From NCBI RefSeq assembly GCF_031583025.1, contig NZ_CP134062.1, positions 1,240,001-1,304,000 of the forward strand: a stretch of 64,000 nucleotides of DNA. Reading direction: 5' to 3'. Source of the DNA: Mycobacterium sp. Z3061. Lineage in GTDB: Bacteria > Actinomycetota > Actinomycetes > Mycobacteriales > Mycobacteriaceae. Below, piece after piece: positions 1 to 26,961 of the stretch. Below the pieces are notes generated by a model. The model was not told the DNA's origin and did not search any database. It worked only from the letters and a program-made list of their open reading frames with translations. The position numbers and the translations under genes were made by a program. Every line of letters begins with the position of its first letter. The first letter of the stretch is position 1.

Positions 1-125
1 GTGACAACACCAACATCTCGGTGAAGCTGATCCAGCCCGTCGCCATGGACGACGGTCTGCGGTTCGCGATCCGTGAAGGTGGCCGCACCGTCGGCGCCGG
101 CCGGGTCACCAAGATCATCAAGTAG
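1..125 (+). CDS. tuf: Elongation factor Tu, 3' end (partial)
   Basis: The gene runs in from the left edge; reading from base 3 gives about 40 codons ending in [15 protein letters not shown] and a TAG at 123-125. This is the usual C terminus of EF-Tu (beta-barrel domain 3), the GTPase that delivers aminoacyl-tRNA to the ribosome. The GTP-binding domain lies outside the window. A strong hairpin terminator follows 15 bases after the stop, so this is the end of the str-type operon (rpsL-rpsG-fusA-tuf in mycobacteria). Confidence 0.95.
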
Positions 126-140
126 CGTTCACCGCGCGAC

Positions 141-190
141 CAGACGTAAAAGCCCCCGAAAACCTCGGTTTTCGGGGGCTTTTACGTCTG
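141..190 (+). terminator. Intrinsic terminator after tuf (TRIT-like)
   Basis: A perfect 24-bp inverted repeat (arms 141-164 and 167-190) with a 2-base spacer. The right arm reads through GGGGGCTTTTACGTCTG, so a GC-rich stem is followed by a T-run that is itself paired with an A-run in the left arm, making it symmetrical. The base of the stem (CAGACGTAAAA) is shared with the terminators at 22898 and 42588. It resembles the TRIT class of long mycobacterial terminators. Confidence 0.9.
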
Positions 191-282
191 CTGGGCGGGC
201 TGACTTGTGATCGGTAGAGGCCGTGCGAGCGCTAATCTGACATCCTCGGGCACCCGACCCGAGCAGAGTGAGGAGAAAACAC

Positions 283-1083
283 ATGCTCGCGCGGTACATC
301 AAGATGCAGCTGCTGGTGCTGTTGTGCGGCGGCCTGGTCGGACCGATCTTCCTGGTCGTCTACTTCACCCTCGGCTTCGGTCAGCTGCTGTCGTGGATGT
401 TCTACGTCGGTCTGCTCATCACCGTCGCCGACGTGCTGATCGCGATCGGGCTGACGTACTGGAGCGTCAACACGGCCGCCAAGAACGAGGCGCTCGAGCA
501 GACCGGAGTGCTGGCGCTGGCGCAGATCACCGGTCTGAGCGAGACGGGTACCCGGATCAACGAGCAGCCGGTGGTCAAGGTGCATCTGCACGTATCCGGA
601 CCTGGGATCGCGCCCTTCGACAGTGAGGACCGGGTGATCGCGAGCGTGACGCGGCTGGGCAACTTGACGGCCCGCAAGCTCGTCGTCCTGGTCGACCCCA
701 CCACGAACGAGTACCGGATCGATTGGGAGCGAAGCGCTTTGGTGAACGGCCTGGTGCCCGCGCAGTTCACCGTCGAGGAGGACAACCGGACCTACGACCT
801 CAGTGGCCAGGCCGGGCCGCTGATGGAGATCCTGCAGCTGCTCAAGGCCAACAACATCCCGCTCAACCGCATCGTCGATGTGCGTTCCAATCCGGCTCTC
901 CGTCAGCAGCTGCACGCGGTGGTGCGCCGTGCCGGCCAGCAGCAGGCGGGTCAGACCGCCCAGCCCCAGGCACAGGGCTCGATCGCCGACCGGCTGCAGG
1001 AGCTGGAATCGCTGAAGGCCAGCGGCGTGGTGAACGACCAGGAGTACGCGAGCCGGCGTGCTCAGATCATCTCCGAGATCTGA
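283..1083 (+). CDS. Membrane protein with C-terminal SHOCT domain (Rv0686-like)
   Basis: 266 residues. Two hydrophobic helices near the N terminus (about residues 7-30 and 36-58) are followed by a soluble beta-rich region and a Gln-rich linker. The last ~32 residues (IADRLQELESLKASGVVNDQ onward) form a SHOCT-type short helical domain, usually an oligomerisation element. I chose the ATG at 283 because the Shine-Dalgarno AGGAG sits at 271-275; the alternative GTG at 268 lies upstream of it. Position after tuf and length agree with M. tuberculosis Rv0686. The function is unknown. Confidence 0.85.
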   Translation: MLARYIKMQLLVLLCGGLVGPIFLVVYFTLGFGQLLSWMFYVGLLITVADVLIAIGLTYWSVNTAAKNEALEQTGVLALAQITGLSETGTRINEQPVVKVHLHVSGPGIAPFDSEDRVIASVTRLGNLTARKLVVLVDPTTNEYRIDWERSALVNGLVPAQFTVEEDNRTYDLSGQAGPLMEILQLLKANNIPLNRIVDVRSNPALRQQLHAVVRRAGQQQAGQTAQPQAQGSIADRLQELESLKASGVVNDQEYASRRAQIISEI

Positions 1084-1161
1084 GCACGCCTCCACGAACG
1101 GAACCTGGCTGCGAATTCTGGCGCGAAATCTCGCGGTGCGGTTCCGTTCGCGGCACCCTAG

Positions 1162-2052
<891 letters not shown>

Positions 2053-2077
2053 TTGTCTACCGTGCTATGAACTCCAC

Positions 2078-3253
2078 GTGAGCACACACGGAATCGTGAT
2101 CGTCGGCGGCGGGCTGGCTGCCGCCCGGACCGCCGAGCAACTGCGTCGTGCGGAGTACGCCGGCCCCATCACCATCGTCAGCGACGAGGTGCACCTGCCC
2201 TACGACAGGCCGCCGCTGTCCAAGGAGGTGCTGCGCAGCGAGATCGATGACACCGCTCTCAAACCGCGCGACTGGTACGACGAGAAGGACATCACCCTTC
2301 GCCTGGGTCAGGCGGCGACCGGCATCGACACCGCGGCGCAGACGGTGACGCTGGCCGACGGCACCTCGCTGGGCTACGACGAACTCGTCATCGCCACCGG
2401 GCTGGTGCCGCGCCGGATCCCGAGCCTGCCCGACCTGGACGGCATTCGGGTGTTGCGGTCGTTCGACGAATGCATGGCGCTGCGCACCCACGCGTCCTCG
2501 GCCAAGAAGGCGGTGGTGGTCGGCGCGGGATTCATCGGCTGTGAGGTCGCGGCCAGCCTGCGTGGTCTCGGCGTCGACGTGGTCCTGGTGGAACCGCAGC
2601 CGACGCCGTTGGCATCGGTGCTGGGCGAGCAGATCGGTGCGCTGGTCACCCGGCTGCACCGCGACGAAGGTGTCGACGTGCGCACCGGCATCGGGGTGGC
2701 CGAGGTCCGCGGGCAGGGGCATGTCGACACGGTGGTGCTCAGCGACGGCACGGAGGTTCCCGCCGACCTCGTTGTGGTCGGAATCGGCTCGCATCCGGCC
2801 ACCGACTGGCTCGACGGCAGCGGCATCGAGGTCGATAACGGTGTCGTCTGCGACGAGTCCGGCCGCACCAGCGCCCCGCACGTCTGGGCGCTCGGTGATG
2901 TCGCTTCCTGGCGCGATGCCGCGGGACACCAAGTGCGCGTGGAGCATTGGAGCAACGTGGCCGACCAGACCCGGGTGGTGGTGCCCGCGATGCTGGGCCG
3001 CGAGGTGCCGTCGACGGTCGTCGTCCCGTATTTCTGGAGCGATCAGTACGACGTCAAGATCCAGTGCCTGGGCGAACCCGAGGCCACCGACACCGTGCAC
3101 ATCGTCGAGGACGACGGGCGCAAGTTCCTGGCGTACTACGAACGCGACGGCGCCCTGGTGGGTGTGGTCGGCGGCGGGCTGCCCGGCAAGGTCATGAAGG
3201 TGCGCGCCAAAGTCGCAGCAGCCGTTCCGATTTCGGAGATGCTGGACGGCTAG
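2078..3253 (+). CDS. FAD-dependent NAD(P)H:ferredoxin reductase (Rv0688-like)
   Basis: 391 residues, GTG start 25 bases after the SDR stop, so probably co-transcribed. An N-terminal FAD-binding motif VGGGLAAARTA, a second dinucleotide-binding motif GAGFIGCEVAASL near residue 150 for NAD(P)H, and a late FAD contact VWALGDVAS near residue 270 mark the rhodocoxin/putidaredoxin-reductase family. Such enzymes pass electrons from NAD(P)H to a ferredoxin that feeds P450s or dioxygenases. No ferredoxin gene is adjacent. The 3' end overlaps the convergent VOC gene by 4 bases. Confidence 0.88.
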   Translation: MSTHGIVIVGGGLAAARTAEQLRRAEYAGPITIVSDEVHLPYDRPPLSKEVLRSEIDDTALKPRDWYDEKDITLRLGQAATGIDTAAQTVTLADGTSLGYDELVIATGLVPRRIPSLPDLDGIRVLRSFDECMALRTHASSAKKAVVVGAGFIGCEVAASLRGLGVDVVLVEPQPTPLASVLGEQIGALVTRLHRDEGVDVRTGIGVAEVRGQGHVDTVVLSDGTEVPADLVVVGIGSHPATDWLDGSGIEVDNGVVCDESGRTSAPHVWALGDVASWRDAAGHQVRVEHWSNVADQTRVVVPAMLGREVPSTVVVPYFWSDQYDVKIQCLGEPEATDTVHIVEDDGRKFLAYYERDGALVGVVGGGLPGKVMKVRAKVAAAVPISEMLDG

Positions 3254-4506
3254 AACTGCCCCAGGTAGAAGCGCGAGCCCTGGTCGTCGGTGCACTCGGC
3301 GGACAGTCCGTACGGCTGGCGGGACGGCTCGTCCAGCACGGTGCCGCCGGCTTCGCGGACCCGGGCCACCGCGGCGTCGATGTCGTCGACGGTCCACATC
3401 GGCACCGTGGTGCGGCGCGGGCTCCCGCCGGCGGCGCCCGACATCGGGTGAGCGTCGCGCACCTGCCACCCGTCGGCGACGCGGCCAGGTTCGAACGTCC
3501 ACCCCAGCACCCGCCCGTAGAAGTCCCGGAAGCCCGCGGACTCCGTCACGTCGTAGGTCACGTAGGCCAGCTCGCCGGGACCAGATCCGTTGAGCTGCGG
3601 ACGTTCCCGGCCCGCTGCCGGTTCGAACACCGCGAACGGCGCACCTTGCGGATCGGTGGCTTCCAGCGTGATGCCGTGCTCGCTGCGCCGAGTCTCACCG
3701 ACCGACCCGCCGGCCGCGGTGATCGCCGCGCGCGCCTCGGCCAGGTCGGCGACGGCGTAGCCGCAGAACATGCCCGGCTCACCGGCTCGGATGTCGGTGG
3801 GCAGGTCGGTGCTGGTCACCCGATGCGACGCCGCGTCGACGGTCCACCCCAGTACGTGTGCGTAAAAGTCAGCGGCGCGCTGCGCGTCAGGAACCTGCAG
3901 CCAGATGTAACCCAGGTCGCCCTGCCTGATTCCGGCGATCGGGGTCGCCACCGGGCCGCTGAGCATCCAGCGGTGACCGAATGGGTCGACGAGGGTCGCG
4001 TTGCGCGCGCCGTGCCCCTCATAGATTTCGCGCTGCACCATCGCACCGTGCTCACGAGCCCGCCGCAACGCGGCATCGGTATCGGCGACATGCAGCATCA
4101 GGCTGACCGACACGGCGCCAGGTTGCGGACCCCGTAAGCCCAACTCGGGGTACTCGTCGGCCAGATACAGCACACCGGTTCCGATCTCGAGCTCGGCATG
4201 CCCAATTCGGCCGTCGTCCATCACGATTGGCTCACCGACCACCACTGCGCCGAACGCCGCGGCGTACCAGTCGATCGCGGCACGCGCGTCCCGCAGGGAG
4301 AGATAGGGGAGTGCGGCCGGGCGGGGGGCGGCGGCGGGCTGTTCGGACAGTTCGGAAATGGTTGCGCTGATGCCACTCATGACAACTCCTTCGGGTAGTG
4401 ACAATGCGGACTCCAGCCGCGCCCGCAACCGCGCGGCGAAGCCCGGATCGGGTTGCACCGGAAGGTCTTCGGTGTGCAGCACGTTGAGCGGATCGCGCAG
4501 ACTCAT
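3250..4506 (-). CDS. Triple VOC (glyoxalase-like) domain protein coupled to ECF sigma gene
   Basis: 418 residues. After an N-terminal stretch with the motif PVQPDPGFAARLRARLESAL come three glyoxalase/bleomycin-resistance-type (VOC) modules: about residues 65-180 (starting PYLSLRDARAAIDWY), 195-305 (GDLGYIWLQVPDAQRAADFY) and 313-418 (GELAYVTYDVTESAGFRDFY). The ATG at 4506 overlaps the stop of the sigma gene in an ATGA arrangement, so the two are translationally coupled. A longer reading upstream would run through the sigma gene in another frame and is unlikely. VOC domains bind metals and small molecules; here the protein may sense a ligand or partner the sigma factor. No substrate can be assigned. 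Confidence 0.8.
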   Translation of the reverse strand: MSLRDPLNVLHTEDLPVQPDPGFAARLRARLESALSLPEGVVMSGISATISELSEQPAAAPRPAALPYLSLRDARAAIDWYAAAFGAVVVGEPIVMDDGRIGHAELEIGTGVLYLADEYPELGLRGPQPGAVSVSLMLHVADTDAALRRAREHGAMVQREIYEGHGARNATLVDPFGHRWMLSGPVATPIAGIRQGDLGYIWLQVPDAQRAADFYAHVLGWTVDAASHRVTSTDLPTDIRAGEPGMFCGYAVADLAEARAAITAAGGSVGETRRSEHGITLEATDPQGAPFAVFEPAAGRERPQLNGSGPGELAYVTYDVTESAGFRDFYGRVLGWTFEPGRVADGWQVRDAHPMSGAAGGSPRRTTVPMWTVDDIDAAVARVREAGGTVLDEPSRQPYGLSAECTDDQGSRFYLGQF

Positions 4507-5018
4507 GCCGTGCCCCCTTCCGGATACTCCTTGCGGAACGCTTTCTTGGCGCGAACCAGCAGCGCCTCGGTGGCGTGCACGGTCCGGCCGAGCAGTGCGG
4601 CGCACTCACCGACGCTGCAGTCGTCCATGTAGCGCAGCACCAGCACCGCGCGGTGTGAGTCGCTCAGTCTTTCCAGCACGCTCTCGGCGACCAACCGGTC
4701 CAGCTCGGCATCCCAGTCATCGGGTGGGTCGACCGGCTCCGGCGGATCGGCCACCGGCACCGGGTCACGCCGGCCCCGGTAATGGTCGGCCAGTTTGTGC
4801 CGCGCCACTCCCATCAGCCAGGGCATGGCGATCGGCGGTGGATCGTTGCGGCGCACTGCATCCATCCCGGCCAGAAACGTCTCCGACGTCAGATCCTCCG
4901 CCGTCCCCCGGTCTCCGCAGCGGCGCACGAAGTAGCCGTAGACCACAGGCAGCGCTTCGTCGTACAGCTCCAGCAGCGCGCTCGCGGCGTCGCGCTGGCG
5001 GTGCGGTTGGGCGCTCAC
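4503..5018 (-). CDS. ECF-family RNA polymerase sigma factor
   Basis: 171 residues, GTG start. Region sigma-2 is visible at about residues 20-85 (VYGYFVRRCGDRGTAEDLTSE then PWLMGVARHKLADHYRGRRD) and sigma-4 with its helix-turn-helix at about 110-165 (LSDSHRAVLVLRYMDDCSVGECAALLGRT). No anti-sigma factor with a transmembrane helix follows; the coupled downstream gene is the VOC protein. A perfect dyad and an ECF-like promoter lie directly upstream, suggesting autoregulation. I do not assign it to a named M. tuberculosis sigma factor. Confidence 0.87.
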   Translation of the reverse strand: MSAQPHRQRDAASALLELYDEALPVVYGYFVRRCGDRGTAEDLTSETFLAGMDAVRRNDPPPIAMPWLMGVARHKLADHYRGRRDPVPVADPPEPVDPPDDWDAELDRLVAESVLERLSDSHRAVLVLRYMDDCSVGECAALLGRTVHATEALLVRAKKAFRKEYPEGGTA

Positions 5019-5050
5019 ATCCTTGACGTCGTTGTGGCGGCCCGAATTCC

Positions 5051-5076
5051 GACGGGGTAATCGGAAAAATTTTCCG
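5051..5076 (-). promoter_or_regulatory. Putative ECF-type autoregulatory promoter / dyad
   Basis: In the 64-base gap upstream of the sigma gene, bases 5062-5076 form a perfect 15-bp dyad (CGGAAAA-A-TTTTCCG). Read on the minus strand it supplies GGAAAA (5075-5070), followed after 15 bases by CGTC (5054-5051). GGAA with a downstream CGTC-type element is the general form of ECF promoters, so the sigma factor may drive itself. The spacing is slightly short, and the assignment is inferred from sequence only. Confidence 0.4.
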
Positions 5077-5082
5077 CTGGTG

Positions 5083-6132
5083 TCACTGCCAGTGCACCGG
5101 CGCGCCGTGGGCGTGGCATTCGGCCAGCACGCGATCCTCGCCGCCGGGCCAGGCCGTGGCCCGCACCAGGAACTTCAACGCGCCGTCCGGTCCCTCGCGT
5201 GCCGGCTCGAGAGTCAGGTGCGCGAACGGCTTCCGCGCGTCCGCCTGCGCGGCCAGGCTGTCGATCCCGGCCCGCACCGTCGCGCGTTCGTCGGCGGAGA
5301 GGTACTGCCAGGTGATCGAATGCCACAGCACGGTCAGCGCTCCTTCGGTCAGGGTGAGCCCGGCGACCGCAGCCGCGGCCGACCGGCGCTCCAACTGCGC
5401 CGGTACCTCGCGGGCCACCGCGATGGCGCCGCGCACCCGGGTCAATCTGGCCTGCTGGTCCGGCCACACATAGCTGAGCACGGTGAGCTCCCCGTCGGGT
5501 TCGGTCACGTCGATGGGCGCGATGTCGTACCCGTACCGTTCGGTGATGCGCAGCCTGCCACCCGGGGGGAGTTGACCGTGCCAGGCGTCGTCAATCACCA
5601 CCGGCGAATCGGGCGGTCCCCACTGATTGCCGGCGTAGCGGTAGTGGTACCGGTCGGCACGCAGGTTCAGTCCGGCGCTGCTGCCGATCTCGAAAAGCCG
5701 TATAGGCAGCTGGAATTCGCTGTCAAGGTGCAGTAGGCCGCCGATCAGTGCCGCCGACCGGCCCACCTCATTGGTCTGCGGCGGCGAGCGCAGCGCCGCC
5801 CGCAGCGCGTCGGGCTGCTCGTCGGCGAGGCGCAGGATCTCGGGCCAGGCGCGCTGCGCGTCCCAGCTGCCACCCGCGCTGGGATACCAGCGGCGCAGGT
5901 GCGCCGCCCGCCCGTCGAGCACCATCCGGTGCAGCCCGCCGAGTAATCGCAGCGGCACCGCCTGGCCCGAGGACGCCTCCTCCTGGCCGGCGAGGATGGC
6001 CGCGAAGACGCCGCCGCTTTCCACATCGCCGGCCACCAGTTCGAAGAGCTCGCCATACATCGCCGATCCGGATCGCGCGCAGAACCGGCCCTGTGACCGC
6101 AGGGTGTGCAACAAATGGTCGATATCGCTCAC
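5083..6132 (-). CDS. DUF2332 protein (Rv0690c-like)
   Basis: 349 residues, the same length as I recall for Rv0690c. The GTG at 6132 overlaps the mftR stop (GTGA), so it is the second gene of an mftR transcript. The protein has a central segment [20 protein letters not shown] that looks like a SAM-methyltransferase-type glycine motif and another at [16 protein letters not shown]. The family is uncharacterised. Linkage to mftR across this interval hints at a link to mycofactocin metabolism, but nothing in the sequence proves it. Confidence 0.8.
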
Positions 6133-6722
6133 TCGAGTGAGTCCAGGGCGGCCCCGACGACGTCGAACGCATTCCCCAGCGCCTCGGGCAGCGAGACCGA
6201 CTCGTCGCCGAGCCAGTACTCGTAGGCGCTCAGCGCGACCCCGAGCATGGTCCATGCGACGGTCTGCGGCATCAGGTCGGTCGTCTTGCCGCCCGACCTG
6301 CTGGCCACGAAGCCCGCGATCACCTCCCGCCAACCCGCGTACATCGTCATCGAATATGCTTGCAGCTCAGCCGTTTCCAGGATGACTCGCATGCGCTGGC
6401 GATGCCGGACCGACTCGCATTCGTCGAAGGTGTTGAACGCCAGCAGCGCCCCGCGCAGCGCCTCCCGCAACGGCACCCGTGGATCGACTCGGTCCAGCAG
6501 TTCCTGCAACTGCTCGAGGTGGGCGTCGAAGTCGCCCCACGGGATCGCGTTCTTGGAGGAGTAGTAGCGGAACAGGGTCCGGCGCGCGATGCCGGCGGCA
6601 TGGGCGACGTCGTCGACGCTGACCTCGGCGAACCCGCGCGCGGCGAACAGGTCGATCGCGACGTCGGTGATGTGCAGCGGCGTCGTCGAGCGGCGCCTGC
6701 CCACCCGCGACTCCGGCAGCAT
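6129..6722 (-). CDS. mftR: Mycofactocin system TetR-family regulator MftR
   Basis: 197 residues. The N-terminal helix-turn-helix ([19 protein letters not shown], about residues 36-54) is typical TetR; the C-terminal region is the ligand and dimer domain. The ATG at 6722 gives the family's usual length; a longer frame runs further upstream into the operator. MftR of M. smegmatis is reported to repress the mft operon and to respond to long-chain acyl-CoA. It is divergent from mftA, with a strong palindrome between them at 6761-6788. Confidence 0.93.
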
Positions 6723-6760
6723 CAGACCCGCCCTTCCATTTCGGCACTCGATGCCATATT

Positions 6761-6788
6761 CTGGCCACGATCGTGTGATTGTGACCAG
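6761..6788. promoter_or_regulatory. Probable MftR operator
   Basis: A 28-bp imperfect palindrome, CTGGCCACGATC then GTGT then GATTGTGACCAG: 10 of the 12 positions in each arm pair with the other. It lies centrally between the divergent mftR (start 6722) and mftA (start 6833), where a TetR dimer could control both. The size fits a TetR-family site. Binding has not been shown for this sequence. Confidence 0.65.
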
Positions 6789-6832
6789 CACCACCCATCA
6801 TTGTCGAGTCCCTTCAATGAAAGGCAACCGCC

Positions 6833-6922
6833 ATGGACAACGAAAACCAGACTGAGACCGAGCTCGTCACCGAGACCCTGGTGGAAGAGGTTTCCATCGA
6901 CGGCATGTGCGGGGTCTACTGA
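6833..6922 (+). CDS. mftA: Mycofactocin precursor peptide MftA
   Basis: 29-residue RiPP precursor ending in IDGMCGVY. The C-terminal Val-Tyr dipeptide is the part that becomes the cofactor: MftC removes the Tyr carboxylate and cross-links Val to Tyr, and MftE then releases the core. The Glu/Thr-rich N-terminal part is the leader recognised by MftB. AAAGG at 6820-6824 sits 8 bases before the ATG. The first gene of mftABCDEFG; mftB starts two bases after its stop. Confidence 0.97.
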
Positions 6923-6924
6923 CG

Positions 6925-7230
6925 GTGGCCGCGCCCGCGCCGGCCTCGGAGACCGCGCAGTTCGACCCGGACAGCGCCTGGCGCCTGCATCCGCAGGTGG
7001 CGATCCGGCCGGAACCCTTTGGGGCGCTGCTGTATCACTTCGGCACCCGCAAACTCTCGTTCCTGAAGAACCGCACCATTCTGACGGTGGTGAAGTCACT
7101 GGGCGAGCACCCTGACGTCCGGTCCGCTTGCCGGGCCGCCGGCGTCGACGACCCCGACCAGGGCCCCTATCTGCACGCACTGGGTGTGCTGGCCCGCTCT
7201 ACCATGCTGGTCCCCCGGGAGGAACGATGA
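6925..7230 (+). CDS. mftB: Mycofactocin biosynthesis chaperone MftB
   Basis: 101 residues from GTG 6925; an ATG at 6907 would lie inside mftA and is less likely. MftB is a small RiPP-recognition-element protein related to PqqD that binds MftA and presents it to MftC. The segment WRLHPQVAIRPEPFGALLYH is the conserved beta-hairpin opening of the fold. The stop overlaps the start of mftC (ATGA), consistent with a stoichiometric MftB-MftC pair. Confidence 0.94.
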   Translation: MAAPAPASETAQFDPDSAWRLHPQVAIRPEPFGALLYHFGTRKLSFLKNRTILTVVKSLGEHPDVRSACRAAGVDDPDQGPYLHALGVLARSTMLVPREER

Positions 7231-8420
7231 GCACCGCAGCCAGAGTCCCCGCACTGATCGAGCAGTTCGAGCACGGGCTGGACGCGCCGATCTGCCTGAC
7301 CTGGGAGCTGACCTACGCCTGCAACCTGGCGTGTGTGCACTGCCTGTCGTCGTCGGGCAAACGTGATCCGGGTGAGCTGTCCACCCGCCAGTGCAAGGAC
7401 ATCATCGACGAGCTGGAACGCATGCAGGTGTTCTACGTGAACATCGGCGGCGGCGAACCCACTGTGCGGCCGGACTTCTGGGAATTGGTGGACTACGCGA
7501 CCGAACACCATGTCGGGGTGAAGTTCTCCACCAACGGCGTGCGCATCACGCCGGAGGTGGCGGCCCGGCTGGCGGCCAGCGACTACGTGGACGTCCAGAT
7601 ATCGCTGGACGGCGCCACCGCCGAAGTCAACGACGCCGTTCGTGGGCCCGGGTCGTTCGCCATGGCGGTGCGGGCGCTGGAGAACCTGGCTGCCGCGGGT
7701 TTCCGCGACGCCAAGATCTCGGTCGTGGTGACCCGGCACAATGTGGATCAGCTCGACGAATTCGCGGCGCTGGCAAGCCGTTACGGTGCCACGTTACGCA
7801 TCACCAGGCTGCGCCCGTCGGGGCGCGGCGCCGATGTCTGGGAGGACCTGCACCCCACCGCCGCCCAGCAGGTGCAGTTGTACGACTGGCTGGTGGCCAA
7901 GGGTGAGGGCGTGCTGACCGGAGACTCCTTCTTCCACCTGGCGCCGCTGGGGTCGCCGGGCGCGCTGGCCGGGCTGAACATGTGCGGGGCCGGCCGGGTG
8001 GTGTGCCTGATCGACCCGGTGGGCGACGTGTACGCCTGCCCATTTGCCATCCATGACCGCTTCCTGGCCGGAAACGTTTTGACGGATAGCGGTTTCGGCC
8101 TCGGCTTTTCCAATGTCTGGAAGAACGCGCCACTGTTCCGCGAACTGCGCGAGCCACAGTCCGCCGGAGCCTGCGGCAGTTGCGGGCACTACGACAGCTG
8201 CCGGGGCGGCTGCATGGCGGCGAAATTCTTCACCGGCCTGCCGATGGACGGCCCCGATCCCGAGTGCGTACAGGGCCACGGGGCGCCGGCGCTGGAATCC
8301 GAGCGCCAGACGCCGAGGCCGCGCGTCGACCACTCCCGCGGTAAACGGATCACCACGCCGGTGCCGTTGACCCTGTCCATGAGGCCGCCGTCGCGGCTGT
8401 GCAATGAAAGTCCCGTATAA
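7227..8420 (+). CDS. mftC: Mycofactocin radical SAM maturase MftC
   Basis: 397 residues. The radical-SAM [4Fe-4S] motif CNLACVHC places the three cluster cysteines at residues 32, 36 and 39. The C-terminal SPASM region carries further cysteines (CGAGRVVC, YACPFA, CGSCGHYDSCRGGC) for auxiliary clusters. The enzyme decarboxylates the C-terminal Tyr of MftA and forms the Val-Tyr carbon-carbon bond. Start ATG 7227 overlaps the mftB stop. The C-terminal tail beyond the SPASM cysteines (about 55 residues, Arg/Pro-rich) looks unstructured. Confidence 0.96.
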   Translation: MSTAARVPALIEQFEHGLDAPICLTWELTYACNLACVHCLSSSGKRDPGELSTRQCKDIIDELERMQVFYVNIGGGEPTVRPDFWELVDYATEHHVGVKFSTNGVRITPEVAARLAASDYVDVQISLDGATAEVNDAVRGPGSFAMAVRALENLAAAGFRDAKISVVVTRHNVDQLDEFAALASRYGATLRITRLRPSGRGADVWEDLHPTAAQQVQLYDWLVAKGEGVLTGDSFFHLAPLGSPGALAGLNMCGAGRVVCLIDPVGDVYACPFAIHDRFLAGNVLTDSGFGLGFSNVWKNAPLFRELREPQSAGACGSCGHYDSCRGGCMAAKFFTGLPMDGPDPECVQGHGAPALESERQTPRPRVDHSRGKRITTPVPLTLSMRPPSRLCNESPV

Positions 8421-8422
8421 CC

Positions 8423-9598
8423 ATGGCCGACCAATGGTTTGAAACAGTCGCCATTGCCCAGCAACGCGCTAAGCGGCGGCTGCCGAAATCCGTCTATTCG
8501 TCGCTTATCTCGGCCAGCGAAAAAGGCGTGACGGTGGCCGACAATGTGGCGGCATTCAGCGAACTCGGATTCGCGCCGCACGTCATCGGTGCCAGCGCGA
8601 AACGCGACCTCTCGACCACGGTTATGGGCCAGGACATTTCGATGCCGGTGCTCATTTCACCGACCGGCGTTCAGGCGGTCGACCCCGACGGCGAGGTCGC
8701 AGTCGCACGTGCCGCCGCCGCCCGCGGCACGGCAATGGGTCTGTCCTCATTCGCCAGCAAGCCGATCGAGGAGGTCATCGCCGCCAACCCCAAGATCTTC
8801 TTCCAGATCTACTGGCTCGGCGGGCGGGACGCGATCGCCGAACGCGCCGAGCGGGCGCGGGCGGCAGGTGCGGCCGGGTTGATCGTCACCACCGACTGGA
8901 CGTTCTCCCACGGCCGCGACTGGGGCAGCCCCAAGATCCCCGAAGAGATGAACCTGAAGAACATCCTGAAGCTTTCACCGGAGGCGATCACCAAGCCGCG
9001 CTGGCTGTGGAAGTTCGGCAAGACGATGCGGCCGCCGGACCTGCGAGTCCCCAACCAGGGCCGCCGCGGCGAGCCCGGCCCGCCGTTCTTCTCCGCGTAC
9101 GGCGAATGGATGGGCACACCGCCGCCTACCTGGGAGGACATCGCCTGGCTGCGGGAACTGTGGGGCGGACCCTTCATGCTCAAGGGCGTGATGCGCGTCG
9201 ACGACGCCAAAAGGGCGGTCGACGCGGGTGTTTCGGCGATCTCGGTGTCCAACCACGGCGGTAACAACCTGGACGGCACACCCGCGTCGATCCGCGCGCT
9301 GCCCGCGGTGGCGCAGGCCGTCGGTGACCAGGTGGAGGTCCTGCTCGACGGAGGCATCCGGCGGGGGAGTGACGTCGTGAAGGCGGTGGCGCTGGGGGCG
9401 CGTGCGGTGATGATCGGACGGGCCTACCTGTGGGGGCTGGCGGCGGCGGGCCAAGCCGGCGTCGAGAACGTGCTGGACATCCTGCGCGGTGGAATCGACT
9501 CGGCGCTGATGGGTCTCGGGCATTCGTCCATTCATGACCTCACTGCGGATGACATATTGATACCGCCCGGCTTCACCAGGGAGCTGGGAGCGCGCTGA
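8423..9598 (+). CDS. mftD: Pre-mycofactocin synthase MftD (lldD1-type FMN dehydrogenase)
   Basis: 391 residues of the FMN-dependent alpha-hydroxy-acid dehydrogenase family, annotated lldD1 in M. tuberculosis. The catalytic His is in SNHGGNNLDGTPAS and the FMN phosphate site in LLDGGIRRGSDVVKAVALGARAV (quoted only as a region near residues 308-330). In the pathway MftD oxidatively deaminates the released AHDP intermediate to pre-mycofactocin. Begins 2 bases after mftC. The next gene starts only after a 219-base gap, unlike the tight packing elsewhere in the operon. Confidence 0.93.
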   Translation: MADQWFETVAIAQQRAKRRLPKSVYSSLISASEKGVTVADNVAAFSELGFAPHVIGASAKRDLSTTVMGQDISMPVLISPTGVQAVDPDGEVAVARAAAARGTAMGLSSFASKPIEEVIAANPKIFFQIYWLGGRDAIAERAERARAAGAAGLIVTTDWTFSHGRDWGSPKIPEEMNLKNILKLSPEAITKPRWLWKFGKTMRPPDLRVPNQGRRGEPGPPFFSAYGEWMGTPPPTWEDIAWLRELWGGPFMLKGVMRVDDAKRAVDAGVSAISVSNHGGNNLDGTPASIRALPAVAQAVGDQVEVLLDGGIRRGSDVVKAVALGARAVMIGRAYLWGLAAAGQAGVENVLDILRGGIDSALMGLGHSSIHDLTADDILIPPGFTRELGAR

Positions 9599-22302: not shown

Positions 22303-22535
22303 TGGCAGTGGGAATCTCCCCTGGCGAACTGCGCGAGCTCACCGACGAGGAGCTGCAGGAGCGGGTTCGCGAGTCCAAGGAAGAGCTGTTCAATCTGCGC
22401 TTCCAGATGGCCACCGGCCAGCTCAGCAACAACCGCCGGCTCCGCGTGGTGCGTCAGGAGATCGCGCGCGTCTACACGGTGCTGCGTGAACGAGAACTGG
22501 GTCTGGCCAGCGGGCCCGACGGTAAGGAGTCGTGA
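22302..22535 (+). CDS. rpmC: 50S ribosomal protein L29 (uL29)
   Basis: 77 residues ([20 protein letters not shown]). A small two-helix protein at the exit tunnel beside L23. I chose ATG 22302, which overlaps the rplP stop; a longer frame inside rplP is not coding. Overlaps rpsQ by four bases. Confidence 0.97.
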
Positions 22536-22882
22536 TGGCAGAGGCTAAGAAGGCGGCCCCGAAAGCGGCCCAGAAGGCGGACGCCCCGGCAAAAGACAAG
22601 GGCCCCAAGCACACTCCGGCCAACCCCAAGCCGCGCGGTCGTCGTAAGACCCGCATCGGCTACGTGGTGAGCGACAAGATGCAGAAGACCATCGTCGTCG
22701 AGCTCGAAGACCGTGTGCGGCACCCGTTGTACGGCAAGATCATTCGGACGACCAAGAAGGTCAAGGCGCACGACGAGAACAGCATCGCCGGTATCGGCGA
22801 CCGCGTCTCGCTGATGGAGACGCGGCCCCTGTCGGCCACCAAGCGCTGGCGCCTCGTGGAGATCCTCGAGAAGGCCAAGTAA
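22532..22882 (+). CDS. rpsQ: 30S ribosomal protein S17 (uS17), N-terminally extended
   Basis: 116 residues from GTG 22532 (ATG 22535 equally possible). Residues ~35-116 are ordinary S17 ([20 protein letters not shown]). The first ~35 residues are a Lys/Ala/Pro-rich extension, seen in other mycobacteria. Last gene of the S10 operon; a very strong terminator begins 15 bases later. Confidence 0.97.
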
Positions 22883-22897
22883 CTCTCGGTAACTCCC

Positions 22898-22957
22898 GCG
22901 AGCAGACGTAAAAACCCCCGTTTCATCGCCGAAACGGGGGTTTTTACGTCTGCTCGC
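22898..22957 (+). terminator. Terminator of the S10 operon (TRIT-like)
   Basis: Perfect 27-bp arms (22898-22924 and 22931-22957) around the loop ATCGCC. The stem contains ACCCCCGTTTC opposite GAAACGGGGGTTTTT and the outer part GAGCAGACGTAAA shared with the other two ribosomal terminators in this window. Strong enough to isolate the following small gene from ribosomal transcription. Confidence 0.93.
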
Positions 22958-22967
22958 CACCGAACTC

Positions 22968-23081
22968 GTCCACCGATCGGGGGACACGGAATACCGCCCG
23001 ACTCGGGCTTATCGGTGGACATCGCCGGCTGATCTGCGTTGTTAGTTTCTAATTGCGCAATTCAATCAGCGAATAAAGGAG
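22968..23081 (+). promoter_or_regulatory. Structured upstream region of the 26-codon gene
   Basis: Contains (a) a 10-bp inverted repeat GTCCACCGAT (22968-22977) / ATCGGTGGAC (23011-23020); (b) nested inside it a 6-bp hairpin GCCCGA-C-TCGGGC (22996-23008); (c) a perfect 12-bp palindrome AATTGCGCAATT at 23051-23062; and (d) AAAGGAG at 23075-23081, a strong ribosome site 5 bases before ATG 23087. A possible -10 element TCTAAT overlaps at 23048-23053. The arrangement suggests regulated expression of the small gene; none of the elements matches a riboswitch I know. Confidence 0.5.
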
Positions 23082-23086
23082 AAACC

Positions 23087-23167
23087 ATGTCCCACGAGAT
23101 GCTGTTCAACGAGAGCGAGATCGTCTACTCGGCGCCGATCTACAGCGCCACCGACGCCTGCGAATAA
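23087..23167 (+). CDS. 26-residue peptide, candidate RiPP precursor
   Basis: ATG 23087 to TAA 23165-23167. The first 13 residues are acidic and amphipathic (Met/Leu/Phe/Glu), like a leader; the last 13 are [13 protein letters not shown], with a repeated Tyr-Ser-Ala and a single Cys at position 25. It has one of the clearest ribosome sites in the window and sits 101 bases before a P450 on the same strand. Short precursors next to a single P450 are the pattern of P450-cross-linked RiPPs (atropopeptides, biarylitides), but I recognise no known core motif. It could also be a leader peptide that controls the P450, or a free-standing small protein. Family unknown. Confidence 0.6.
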
Positions 23168-23268
23168 GCACGCACGAGGAAGTCGATCCTGACCCCGGCC
23201 GTACCTGCGACCACCTGCGGGTGGGTCGGGGTCAGCGGCATCAGTCGCCTCATTCCCGATTGGACATC

Positions 23269-24507
23269 ATGACCAGCTGCCTCCTGCCGGCCCGGCTCGG
23301 TTTCGACCTCACCGACCCGGACAACTTCGACAACGGCTTCCCGTACCACATCTTCGAGACCCACCGACTCCAGGCGCCGGTGTTCTGGCATGAGCCCACC
23401 GAGCACACACCCGACGGGGAGGGCTTCTGGTCGGTCGCCACGTACGCCGAAACTATTGCCGTGCTGCGTGATTCGACGACCTTCTCGTCGGAGACCGGCG
23501 GCAAGCGACCGTACGGCGGCACGTTGCTGCAAGACTTCCCGGTGTCCGGCCGGCTGATCAACATGATGGATGACCCGCGGCACGCCGCTATCCGGCGATT
23601 GGTCAGCTCGGGTCTGGGGCCGCGGATCATCGGCCGCATCGAGGACGACCTGCGTCACCGGGCTCGCCGGTTGTTCGACCAGATCAAGCCCGGCGAGGCG
23701 TTCGATTTCGCCGTCGACGTGGCCGCCGAACTGCCCACCCAGATGATCTGCATGCTGCTGGGCGTGCCCGAAGTCGACCGGCACTGGTTGTTCGACGAGA
23801 TCGAGGCGGGGTTGAACTTCCGCGGCTCCAGCAAAGAGTTCGTGTCATGGATCTACGGCACCGACGCGCAATCCCGGCGGGATGATTACGGCCGCGAGCT
23901 GATCGCGCGCAAGCGGGCCGAACCTGGCGACGACATGTTGTCGATCGTGGCCAACGCGACCGTCGACGGCAAGCCGTTCATGTCGGACGAAGAGGTCTAT
24001 CTGTTCTTCCATCAGCTGTTCAGCGCCGGCAGTGACACCACCCGCAGCGTCACGTCCGTCAGCCTGCTCGCCCTGGCCGAGCGGCCCGATCAATGGCGGC
24101 AGTTACGCAGCGACCCGGGCATGCTGCCGGTGGCGATCGAAGAATTCGTGCGATGGACGACACCGTCACCGTCCAAGCGGCGCACCGCCACCCGCGATGT
24201 CACCCTCGGCGGGCACCGCATCGAGGAGGGGCAGAAGGTGCTCGTCTGGGATGCCTCGGCCAACCGTGACCCCAGTGTGTTCGACCGCCCCGACGAGTTC
24301 GACATCACGCGAAAGCCCAACCCGCATCTGGGTTTCGGGCAAGGCGTGCACTACTGCCTCGGAGCGACCCTGGCTCGCCTGGAACTGCGGGTGTTCTTCG
24401 AAGAACTGCTGCCGCGCTTCGAGCGCATCGAGGTGTTGGCGCCACCGGAGTGGGTCGGCAGTAACCGGCGCAACGGTCTGCGGAGCCTGCAGGTCCGGAT
24501 GCACTGA
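23269..24507 (+). CDS. Cytochrome P450 next to the 26-residue peptide gene
   Basis: 412 residues from ATG 23269; a GTG at 23221 would add 16 residues and cannot be excluded, and neither has a strong ribosome site. I-helix SAGSDTT (Asp256, Thr257), ExxR at Glu292/Arg295, and heme-ligand motif [10 protein letters not shown] with Cys363 are all present, so it should be an active soluble class I P450 needing ferredoxin and reductase. The N-terminal part ([20 protein letters not shown]) resembles mycobacterial steroid/fatty-acid P450s. Inserted between rpsQ and atsA, where M. tuberculosis, as I recall, has no gene. Substrate may be the peptide encoded upstream, a lipid, or a sterol. Confidence 0.9.
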
Positions 24508-24603
24508 CCCGCCCCGGGACCCCCCGAAATCTCAGCTGTTTTCTACCTGGCGCGTGTAATGTCCTCGGACGTTCGGGTGGTCATTTCAACGGTGAGGCTG
24601 GGT

Positions 24604-26961
24604 ATGACGGGGTCGGCGCAGTTTGGCGGCAAGATCGAATTGGACATTCGCGATTCGGAACCGGATTGGGGTCCGTACGCGGCGCCGACCGCCCCGGAGA
24701 ATGCCCCCAATGTCTTGTACCTGGTGTGGGACGACACCGGCATCGCCACCTGGGACTGCTTCGGCGGTCTGGTCGAGATGCCGGCCATGACGCGCATCGC
24801 CGAGCGCGGCGTGCGCCTGTCACAGTTCCACACCACGGCGCTGTGCTCCCCGACGCGGGCATCGCTGCTGACCGGCCGCAACGCCACCACGGTCGGTATG
24901 GCCACTATTGAGGAGTTCACCGACGGCTTCCCCAACTGCAACGGCCGCATCCCGGCGGATACCGCGTTGCTCTCCGAGGTGCTCAGCGAGCGCGGCTACA
25001 ACACCTACTGCGTGGGCAAGTGGCACCTGACGCCGCTGGAGGAGTCCAGCATGGCCGCCACCAAGCGGCACTGGCCGACCTCGCGTGGCTTCGAGCGGTT
25101 CTACGGGTTCATGGGCGGAGAGACCGACCAGTGGTACCCCGACCTGATGTACGACAACCACCCGGTGAATCCGCCGGGCACCCCCGAAGACGGCTACCAC
25201 CTGTCGAAAGACCTTGCCGACAAGACAATTCAGTTCATCCGCGACGCCAAGGTGATCGCGCCCGACAAGCCGTGGTTCAGCTACGTCTGCCCGGGCGCGG
25301 GCCACGCGCCGCACCACGTGTTCAAGGAATGGGCCGACAAGTACGACGGCGTGTTCGACATGGGCTATGAGAAGTACCGCGAGATCGCGCTGGAAAAGCA
25401 GAAGACGATGGGGATCGTGCCCACGGACACCGAGTTGTCGCCGATCAACCCCTATCTCGACGTCAAGGGACCCAACGGCGAGCCGTGGCCGCTGCAGGAC
25501 ACGGTACGGCCCTGGGATTCGCTCAACGACGAAGAGAAGAAGCTGTTCAGCCGGATGGCCGAGGTGTTCGCCGGCTTTCTGAGTTACACCGACGCCCAGA
25601 TCGGCCGGATCCTGGACTACCTGGAAGAGTCCGGCCAGCTGGACAACACCATCATCGTGGTGATTTCCGACAACGGGGCCAGCGGCGAAGGCGGACCGAA
25701 CGGTTCGGTCAACGAAGGCAAGTTCTTCAACGGTTACATCGACACCGTCGAGGAGAGCATGAAACTCTTCGATCAACTCGGCGGCCCGCAGACCTACAAC
25801 CACTACCCGATCGGGTGGGCGATGGCGTTCAACACGCCCTACAAGCTGTTCAAGCGCTACGCCTCACACGAAGGTGGTATCGCCGACACGGCAATCATCT
25901 CCTGGCCCAACGGAATTGCCGCACACGGTGAGGTCCGGGACAACTACGTCAACGTCAGCGACATCACCCCCACCGTCTACGACCTGCTGGGCATGACGCC
26001 ACCGGAGACCGTCAAGGGCATCGCGCAGAAGCCGCTGGACGGAGTGAGTTTCAAGGCCGCCCTTGAGGATCCTGGTGCCGACACCGGCAAGAAGACGCAG
26101 TTCTACACGATGCTGGGCACCCGGGGGATCTGGCATGAGGGATGGTTCGCCAACACCGTCCACGCCGCCACCCCCGCCGGCTGGTCGCACTTCGACGCCG
26201 ACCGCTGGGAACTGTTCCACATCGAAGCCGACCGCAGCCAATGCCGCGACCTGGCCACCGAGCACCCGGACAAGCTCGAAGAGCTCAAAGCGCTGTGGTA
26301 CTCCGAGGCCGAGAAGTACAACGGGCTCCCGCTTTCGGACCTGAACATCATGGAGACGATGATGCGCTCGCGGCCCTACCTGGTGGGCGAGCGCGACAGC
26401 TACGTCTACTACCCCGACTGCGCCGACGTCGGCATCGGTGCCGCCGCGGAGATTCGGGGCCGTTCCTTCACGGTGCTGGCCGACGTGACGGTCGAGACCA
26501 CCGGCGCCGAAGGCGTGATCTACAAGCAGGGTGGAGCGCACGGCGGACACGTGCTCTTCATTCAGGACGGCCGCCTGCAATACGTCTACAACTTTCTCGG
26601 TGAACGCCAGCAGCAGATCCAGTCGAACGGACCGATCCCGTTGGGCAGGCACCTGTTCGGCGTTCGCTACGAACGTACCGGGACCGTCCCGAACAGCCAC
26701 ACGCCGATCGGAAACGTGACGCTGTACTTCGACGAACACGCGGTCGGAATGCTTCCCGACGTGATCACCCACCCCGGGACATTCGGGCTGGCCGGCGCCG
26801 GCATCACGGTGGGCCGCAACGGCGGCTCCGCCGTCTCCAGCAAGTACAAGGCCCCGTTCGTGCTGACCGGCGCGAGGGTCGCCCAGGTCACCATCGACCT
26901 TTCCGGCCGGCCCTACGAGGACGTGGAAAAGGAACTTGCGCTTGCCTTTTCGCGGGACTGA
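24604..26961 (+). CDS. atsA: Arylsulfatase AtsA (Rv0711-like)
   Basis: 785 residues from ATG 24604 (GGTGAGG upstream); an in-frame start at 24559 would add 15. The sulfatase signature LCSPTRASLLTGR contains Cys81, which must be converted to formylglycine (C-x-P-x-R) for activity. Metal ligands include WDD near residue 43 and the later SDNGASGEGGPNGS. A C-terminal ~200-residue beta-rich part follows the catalytic domain. It hydrolyses sulfate esters, possibly host or cell-wall sulfolipids. The activating FGE is encoded two genes downstream. Confidence 0.95.
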   Translation: MTGSAQFGGKIELDIRDSEPDWGPYAAPTAPENAPNVLYLVWDDTGIATWDCFGGLVEMPAMTRIAERGVRLSQFHTTALCSPTRASLLTGRNATTVGMATIEEFTDGFPNCNGRIPADTALLSEVLSERGYNTYCVGKWHLTPLEESSMAATKRHWPTSRGFERFYGFMGGETDQWYPDLMYDNHPVNPPGTPEDGYHLSKDLADKTIQFIRDAKVIAPDKPWFSYVCPGAGHAPHHVFKEWADKYDGVFDMGYEKYREIALEKQKTMGIVPTDTELSPINPYLDVKGPNGEPWPLQDTVRPWDSLNDEEKKLFSRMAEVFAGFLSYTDAQIGRILDYLEESGQLDNTIIVVISDNGASGEGGPNGSVNEGKFFNGYIDTVEESMKLFDQLGGPQTYNHYPIGWAMAFNTPYKLFKRYASHEGGIADTAIISWPNGIAAHGEVRDNYVNVSDITPTVYDLLGMTPPETVKGIAQKPLDGVSFKAALEDPGADTGKKTQFYTMLGTRGIWHEGWFANTVHAATPAGWSHFDADRWELFHIEADRSQCRDLATEHPDKLEELKALWYSEAEKYNGLPLSDLNIMETMMRSRPYLVGERDSYVYYPDCADVGIGAAAEIRGRSFTVLADVTVETTGAEGVIYKQGGAHGGHVLFIQDGRLQYVYNFLGERQQQIQSNGPIPLGRHLFGVRYERTGTVPNSHTPIGNVTLYFDEHAVGMLPDVITHPGTFGLAGAGITVGRNGGSAVSSKYKAPFVLTGARVAQVTIDLSGRPYEDVEKELALAFSRD

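Follow-up and report, generated by a model that had tools for sequence, protein, structure and literature searches.

A scattered YcaO-TfuA-associated peptide family in Mycobacterium and a candidate precursor paired with a duplicated CYP126-type P450

A short gene and a P450 share the site between rpsQ and atsA

The window analyzed here is a 64,000-nucleotide stretch of the genome of Mycobacterium sp. Z3061 (NZ_CP134062.1, positions 1,240,001 to 1,304,000). Between the end of the S10 operon and a sulfatase gene it carries a 26-codon open reading frame followed by a cytochrome P450 gene, with these features:

22535..22882, + strand: 30S ribosomal protein S17 gene (rpsQ; NF004123 E=2.4e-34, TIGR03635 E=1.7e-32), end of the S10 operon and left border of the cassette site
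22914..22945, + strand: S10-operon terminator-like hairpin with T-run, ACCCCCGTTTC...GAAACGGGGGT, seen by eye after rpsQ
23075..23081, + strand: Shine-Dalgarno sequence AAAGGAG, with a 5-nt spacer to the ATG at 23087
23087..23167, + strand: putative precursor peptide gene of 26 codons, ATG at 23087, TAA at 23165-23167
23190..23234, + strand: strong RNA hairpin, TGACCCCGGCC...GGTCGGGGTCA, between peptide and P450, from folding energies
23269..24507, + strand: cytochrome P450, CYP126-family duplicate of 412 aa, ATG at 23269, stop at 24505-24507, the proposed tailoring enzyme
24559..26961, + strand: atsA-like sulfatase (arylsulfatase model PRK13759, E=3.7e-23, under the model cut-off), right border of the site and outside the system

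Direct reading confirmed the arrangement that an earlier note on this DNA had described, in which the 26-codon gene has an AAAGGAG site, the P450 begins (ATG 23269) 101 bases 3' of the peptide stop, and the pair lies between rpsQ and atsA. The open reading frame list gives rpsQ a GTG at 22532 as well as the ATG at 22535. An automatic scan of 22800-24700 returned 0 promoters, 0 terminators and no terminator consensus.

Residues 1-13 of the window peptide are leader-like and residues 14-26 core-like, and we infer a leader/core border after residue 13. The P450 retains AGSDTT, EEFVRW and a third, 10-residue stretch, all of which we take to be P450 motifs, and its nearest relative in the named genome set, from M. 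gordonae CTRI 14-8773, is 98% identical; together with a same-species genome (G006) in the genus sample, this makes the window M. gordonae-like. A longer P450 starting at GTG 23221 (428 aa) is the less likely reading, as the aligned range of a relative, G047, contains a TAG, and the position of the called gene in G047 places that TAG within the GTG extension.

The short gene belongs to a peptide family that tracks YcaO-TfuA

A single-sequence search of 198 congeneric genomes with the window peptide gave 62 matches, spread over 17 genomes including its own. We extracted 48 of the 61 non-window matches, and in 46 of these an SD-like GGAG, GAGG, AAGG or AGGA lies within 20 nt upstream. In a 44-row alignment (A1), which omits exact duplicates, the run-on copy of genome G057 and one insertion-bearing copy, L6 and F7 are invariant, M1, E4, E9, E11 and Y14 are at least 90% conserved (M1, at 90%, partly by construction, as six GTG or TTG starts were entered as M), and the second half is variable. 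A chance open reading frame, for which only the short length of the gene speaks, is refuted by the 62 matches in 17 genomes and by the two columns that are invariant over 44 rows, and we regard its probability as practically nil. A profile built from A1 found 1 to 25 matches per genome in 19 of the 198 genus genomes at E<=0.1, seven of them in the window's own genome. Across the order (298 genomes from 76 genera), matches at E<=0.001 came from 4 genomes only, all Mycobacterium, and an NCBIfam scan of the window peptide matched no model.

Many copies directly precede a YcaO gene (PF02624 E=1.3e-60; TIGR00702), and at one such locus (L046) a TfuA gene (PF07812 E=1.2e-40) is the next gene after YcaO. 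YcaO was found in 19 and TfuA in 18 of the 198 genus genomes, with the best 9 candidates per genome scored in the YcaO search, and all 18 TfuA genomes have both YcaO and the peptide. The peptide is thus present in 18/18 YcaO-TfuA genomes versus 1/180 others (Fisher p=1.2e-24), the one exception (G109) being a single weak partial match (E=0.003) without YcaO. An exception of the other kind is the 3.3-Mb genome G075, which holds a YcaO remnant with 8 in-frame stops (C1:1848519-1849247) and no peptide matches, which suggests that this genome has lost the system. When 37 of the 45 YcaO matches were used for distances, and 8 fragments, remnants or distant ones omitted, a peptide match was found within 1 kb of 28 of these 37 near-full-length YcaO copies.

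The window's own genome encodes both enzymes at a single locus at 3.20 Mb, where YcaO lies directly behind the peptide MAYETLFCETECAYTIPLFAVGDATE and is followed by TfuA. The window peptide has no such adjacency, lying 1.9 Mb away, and this distance counts against the reading that we favor. On that reading, which we consider probable, the window peptide is a scattered YcaO-TfuA RiPP precursor that would be thioamidated in trans and tailored by its own adjacent P450. In A1 the window copy and the YcaO-adjacent copies have the same leader.

The same distance would suit a RiPP that the P450 cross-links without thioamidation at the window locus, as would the direct adjacency of peptide and P450 and the presence of Tyr14 and Tyr19. 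Against this, the leader is identical in type to that of YcaO-adjacent copies, and the P450 is found only in YcaO-TfuA genomes (see below), and we judge a P450-only product to be highly unlikely. The proposal of the earlier note, a P450-only RiPP like the atropopeptides or biarylitides, was not supported: the family tracks YcaO-TfuA and has a linked P450 near only 11 of its 140 profile matches.

A distinct group of CYP126-type P450s accompanies the peptide

The window P450 matches PF00067, and its nearest structure in the PDB is CYP126A1 (5li6, E=2.4e-185). P450 families are assigned by a 40% identity rule; at 62-69% identity to canonical CYP126 among the matches listed, the window P450 belongs to the CYP126 family. 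We ruled out an ordinary CYP126 orthologue from the second CYP126 copy elsewhere in the same genome (66% identity to the window P450) and from a tree, unrooted, in which 11 linked rows split from 71 canonical rows with a branch support of 100/100. At E<=1e-150, 164 of the 198 genomes have a CYP126-like gene, and 10 have at least two, all of them among the 18 YcaO-TfuA genomes (p=2.2e-12, best 8 candidates per genome). On the same best 8 candidates, the linked P450 occurs in 10/18 YcaO-TfuA genomes versus 0/180 others.

The linked group also diverges faster. Over 28 pairs from the same eight species the mean distance is 0.240 for the linked P450, 0.118 for canonical CYP126 and 0.083 for atsA, and the linked P450 diverges more than canonical CYP126 in 28/28 pairs. 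At sixteen positions every linked row departs from a residue that at least 90% of canonical rows share; six of these positions fall within 177-205 (p=0.0004, for a region picked post hoc). The available text of a CYP126A1 study names nine pocket residues (PMC5270475), for which we took the numbering from the 5li6 match. Two of these, L249 and H401, are invariant in 71/71 canonical rows and are Q or T and R, respectively, in 11/11 linked rows; T83, A253, S300, K303 and R400 are unchanged in 11/11 linked rows and N96 in 9/11, and M190 varies in both groups alike. The two replacements count in favor of our preferred reading; the unchanged positions and the marginal test for two of nine (p=0.04) count against it. 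The linked P450 is, judging from its sequence, a dedicated CYP126 duplicate with a putatively altered pocket.

In the genus sample, a family peptide is present at the site in 10/10 linked-P450 genomes, in one case run on past the normal stop. We checked 30 CYP126 loci: the ten best matches, each from a different genome, adjoin rpsQ and/or atsA and have the peptide upstream, and within 1.5 kb of the remaining 20 there is no peptide and no such flanking gene; CYP126 matches beyond these 30 were classed as canonical by identity and number only. The exception among the ten is G015, in which the peptide sits between two P450 copies. Among 80 loci of named genomes, a pattern search found the peptide in 9/9 rpsQ-P450-atsA loci versus 0/71 canonical loci, two of which have less than 1.5 kb of upstream sequence. 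The nine come from two M. gordonae strains, two MAGs, M. persicum, M. attenuatum, M. gastri, M. simulans and M. simiae. Pattern searches may miss decayed peptides; a stricter pattern missed that of G057, which the single-sequence, profile and loosened-pattern searches caught. Both the look of a RiPP precursor and the specific tie to this P450, as first noticed in the window, thus held up across these 10 genomes and 80 loci.

Counted from the P450, a peptide match lies within 1 kb of 11/11 linked copies; counted from the peptide, a linked P450 lies within 1.5 kb of only 11/140 profile matches. The eight YcaO-TfuA genomes without a linked P450 have nine atsA loci, and these show no peptide (pattern search, about 1.5 kb upstream) and no intact P450; at seven of them, the stretch analyzed also includes rpsQ upstream. 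The atsA locus of one genome, G074, has a 24-residue stretch that is 75% like the C-terminal part of the P450 and is probably a P450 relic.

Loss of the peptide where the P450 is kept, which would have told against the pairing, was approached most closely in M. attenuatum and M. simiae, and both cases count against our preferred reading. In M. attenuatum (G057) the peptide continues beyond the usual stop position, with an altered second half, and the P450 is open. The rearranged rpsQ-atsA site of M. simiae (L160 3400-6000) has two P450s, one intact peptide and an rpsQ fragment. By eye, this M. simiae site also has a decayed P450 C-terminal end and a decayed second peptide.

Peptide and P450 do not always form one operon, which counts against our preferred reading: a methyltransferase gene separates the two in three genomes, running opposite to them in G120 and G105 and in the same direction in G057. 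The separation by an opposite-strand gene in G120 and G105 would be expected if the peptide were a YcaO-TfuA precursor and the P450 a mere neighbor, sharing the insertion site and acting on some other substrate. That most family copies have no linked P450 is in keeping with this, as is the fact that a natural substrate of CYP126A1 had not been identified as of 2016, according to the available text of PMC5270475. Yet the duplicate occurs only in YcaO-TfuA genomes (10/18 versus 0/180), P450 and peptide are absent together from the site in the remaining YcaO-TfuA genomes, and residue 19 of the peptide differs at P450 loci. We consider a mere neighbor unlikely.

Residue 19 differs in peptides at P450 loci

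We compared 12 distinct P450-locus peptides, one of which (from G029) lies about 3.5 kb from its P450, with 32 unlinked peptides. Position 14 is Tyr in 12/12 P450-locus and 28/32 unlinked peptides; as the latter have no P450 nearby, the conservation of Tyr14 is not owed to the P450. Position 19, in a count that leaves aside the run-on peptide and 3 unlinked ones bearing insertions, is Tyr in 7, Cys in 2 and Phe in 3 P450-locus peptides, versus Phe in 30, Tyr in 1 and Leu in 1 unlinked peptide. For Tyr19 the contrast is 7/12 versus 1/32 (p=1.5e-4, a value that related sequences inflate and that is indicative only). The comparison makes residue 19, in combination with Tyr14, the candidate site of P450 action.

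A cross-link between Tyr14 and Tyr19 had been guessed at from the window copy. With Tyr14 invariant at P450 loci and residue 19 shifted (Tyr or Cys in 9/12, versus Phe in 30/32 unlinked), this guess is better than it looked, but Phe19 in 3/12 means that a Tyr-Tyr or Tyr-Cys coupling cannot be universal. The alternative guess, a cross-link from Tyr to Cys25, is unlikely, and we set Cys25 aside as a cross-link residue, because only 4 of the 12 distinct P450-locus peptides have it. Accordingly, the 'single Cys' and the 'repeated Tyr-Ser-Ala' describe the window copy correctly but not the family, given Cys25 in 4/12 and Tyr19 in 7/12 P450-locus peptides.

Selection on the P450-locus peptides is weak (mean pN 0.23, pS 0.37, 45 pairs), a point against our preferred reading, and the leader is more constrained (pN 0.20, pS 0.42) than the core (pN 0.26, pS 0.33). 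Measured against the window copy, pN/pS is lowest, at 0.30, for the AWTP1-6 MAG and exceeds 1 for two M. simulans copies (1.25 and 1.07) and for M. simiae (1.36), over about 15 synonymous sites. The earlier note had named drift without purifying selection as a reason to abandon its proposal. On the P450-locus copies alone the answer is divided, as purifying selection is visible near home but not demonstrable at distance, and the argument for it therefore rests on the conserved columns of the wider family.

A strong hairpin follows many of the precursor genes

The 101 nt from peptide to P450 (23168-23268) fold at -47.3 kcal/mol (z=-3.26). We surveyed 48 family copies, namely the window and 47 of the 48 extracted copies, one being too close to a contig end. 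In the 90 nt after the stop the mean z is -3.18, with 33/48 below -2, and in an upstream control from the same 48 copies it is -0.37, with 2/48 below -2; these figures are folding energies of related copies that are not independent, and a five-row alignment of the region was poor. A strong stem 3' of the precursor gene is a common trait of the family. Eight of the 12 P450-locus copies in the survey have z<-2 and four are near 0, and the missing hairpin in these four speaks against our preferred reading.

Such a stem would fit an output of more precursor than enzyme, and we infer a processing or attenuation element that yields more of the peptide than of the P450. A short open reading frame followed by a strong hairpin could instead be a regulatory leader peptide whose attenuator controls the P450. 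However, copies in front of unrelated genes keep the amino-acid sequence, and the family tracks YcaO-TfuA, which makes regulation of this kind a very remote prospect.

Methyltransferases and other neighbors of scattered copies

A class I SAM methyltransferase (PF13649/PF08241) is a further partner of the family. At E<=1e-20, with up to 14 candidates per genome, it was found in 18 of the 198 genomes, comprising 15 of the 18 YcaO-TfuA genomes and 3 of the 180 others, and in one of these 3 the gene has in-frame stops. Of the 32 methyltransferase matches, 21 have a peptide match no more than 1 kb away. In a 6.5-Mb genome that has eight peptide copies, only about 0.3% of the sequence would be as close to one, a figure to set also against the 28/37 for YcaO and the 11/11 for the linked P450. 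It is this methyltransferase that separates peptide and P450 at the rpsQ-atsA site of G120, G057 and G105. The window's own genome has a methyltransferase between two family peptides (G000 C1:2688757-2689431). In a tally of distances over all 140 peptide matches, weak ones included, and all 32 methyltransferase matches, 70 of the 140 peptide matches are near none of YcaO, linked P450 or methyltransferase. Scattered precursors of this kind would escape a genome search built on clusters, as many copies are remote from the core enzymes.

Several of these surroundings deserve description. In the window's own genome, a peptide, MDHELLFFEDEAAYTMPQATFNAYNCE, lies divergently beside a distant P450 (G000 C1:2559000-2570000; 25% identity to the window P450 over 236 residues), the called frame of which overlaps the start of the peptide. 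Two more copies in this genome, at C1:1423078 and C1:4390140, precede an alpha/beta-hydrolase (PF20091) and a zinc-type dehydrogenase (PF00107/PF08240), respectively. Relatives of these two enzymes recur elsewhere: in G047 such a hydrolase comes after a copy, separated from it by a methyltransferase, and in G120 such a dehydrogenase comes after a copy. Two genomes, G113 and G023, have 24-25 peptide matches each, weak ones counted, and several YcaO-TfuA loci. In G113 (C109:4000-17000) four family peptides of the [MV]NHE[IV]LF.E type stand in tandem over about 620 bases; a downstream 201-aa protein groups with methyltransferases by BLAST clustering yet is absent from the methyltransferase matches. 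G113 has no linked P450; immediately upstream of its atsA is a methyltransferase from the same family (C31:287678-288325), so the cassette at the rpsQ-atsA site seems to vary.

A proposed pathway

If the window peptide is a scattered precursor of YcaO-TfuA with its own P450, the N-terminal half, MSHE.LFxExE, would be the recognition leader. The single distant YcaO-TfuA pair would act in trans on the C-terminal half, most probably installing at least one backbone thioamide, and the adjacent P450 would oxidize the same core, after or before YcaO-TfuA. Its target would probably be Tyr14 and/or residue 19, and the reaction an aromatic coupling or a hydroxylation. The post-peptide hairpin may keep the level of the precursor above that of the enzyme, and leader removal and export would presumably also be part of the pathway.

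A more far-reaching version can be put forward only tentatively, and we regard it as doubtful as a whole: a modular RiPP system in which one YcaO-TfuA pair serves many scattered precursors, sites contribute their own P450 or methyltransferase, and Tyr14 is coupled to Tyr or Cys at position 19. Were this true, one genome would yield a small peptide library, and the rpsQ-atsA site would yield natural thioamidated, cross-linked peptides.

What appeared to be a lone 26-codon open reading frame is a member of a large peptide family, and a candidate substrate can be offered for a CYP126-type P450. The findings suggest that mycobacteria such as M. gordonae and M. simiae may make families of modified peptides from scattered precursors.

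Comparison with known systems

A network of mycobacterial YcaO-TfuA precursors was predicted in 2019 (Santos-Aberturas et al., PMC6511847). According to the main text of that paper, many mycobacteria encode YcaO-TfuA, and 'Network 1', the largest TfuA-linked peptide network, is usually found near a type III PKS and a sulfotransferase. The family described here is likely to be Network 1, given that it is present in every one of the 18 TfuA genomes sampled and that a type III PKS lies about 15-20 kb from a YcaO in four genomes (G000, G029, G023 and G064). Network 1 as described in the available text of PMC6511847 differs in that neither a methyltransferase partner nor precursors away from YcaO-TfuA are mentioned, and the word 'P450' occurs 0 times in the main text. 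A 2021 survey puts the number of TfuA clusters in M. szulgai and M. angelicum at six and, in its available text, mentions P450s as a general occurrence in such clusters (PMC8120280). In the open literature, supplements aside, the titles and abstract openings among the matches listed report no CYP126-type P450, methyltransferase or scattered precursors for the family, and literal leader strings matched, by title, only word fragments such as 'shellfish'. The expectation that the peptide would be new was therefore right only in part: the family was partly foreseen by the 2019 network, as far as the text of PMC6511847 goes, but the P450 link, with its dedicated CYP126 duplicate, looks new, as do the partnership with a methyltransferase, the scattered placement of the copies and the hairpin.

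Among characterized products, thiostreptamide S4 requires both YcaO and TfuA for thioamidation, according to the text of PMC8153245. Like the thioamitides to which it belongs, the present system would combine thioamidation of a ribosomal precursor by YcaO and TfuA with accessory tailoring enzymes (PMC8153245, same text). Thiostreptamide S4, as that text describes it, has an AviMeCys macrocycle and a single gene cluster (PMC8153245). The family analyzed here has instead scattered precursors of about 26 aa, with a CYP126-type P450 or a SAM methyltransferase as partner.

In biarylitides, atropopeptides and aminopyruvatide, a single P450 encoded next to a short precursor joins aromatic residues of that precursor, and the window likewise has a short putative precursor adjoining one P450. 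The window precursor has 26 residues, whereas that of the biarylitides has five, by the available text of PMC13417212. Against the model of the aminopyruvatide P450 ApyO (NF050147), the window P450 scores 52.4 bits, where the cut-off is 525. As to the atropopeptides, the observation is that the nearest PDB structure of the window P450 is CYP126A1. With a P450 of the CYP126 type and a peptide family tied to YcaO-TfuA, the present system appears to differ from these groups.

The linked P450 shares its family with CYP126A1 (5li6). It differs from canonical CYP126 in its locus, as a pattern search found no peptide gene at the 71 named canonical loci, and in its residues at L249, H401 and positions 177-205.

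The nearest parallel for the two proposed modifications is an engineered one. A thioamidated biarylitide made in 2026, which its authors call, to their knowledge, the first thioamide-containing biarylitide, combines YcaO/TfuA-type thioamidation (ThoH/I) with a P450 cross-link on one peptide, according to the available text of PMC12951456. In Mycobacterium, a natural genome arrangement suggests a comparable combination.
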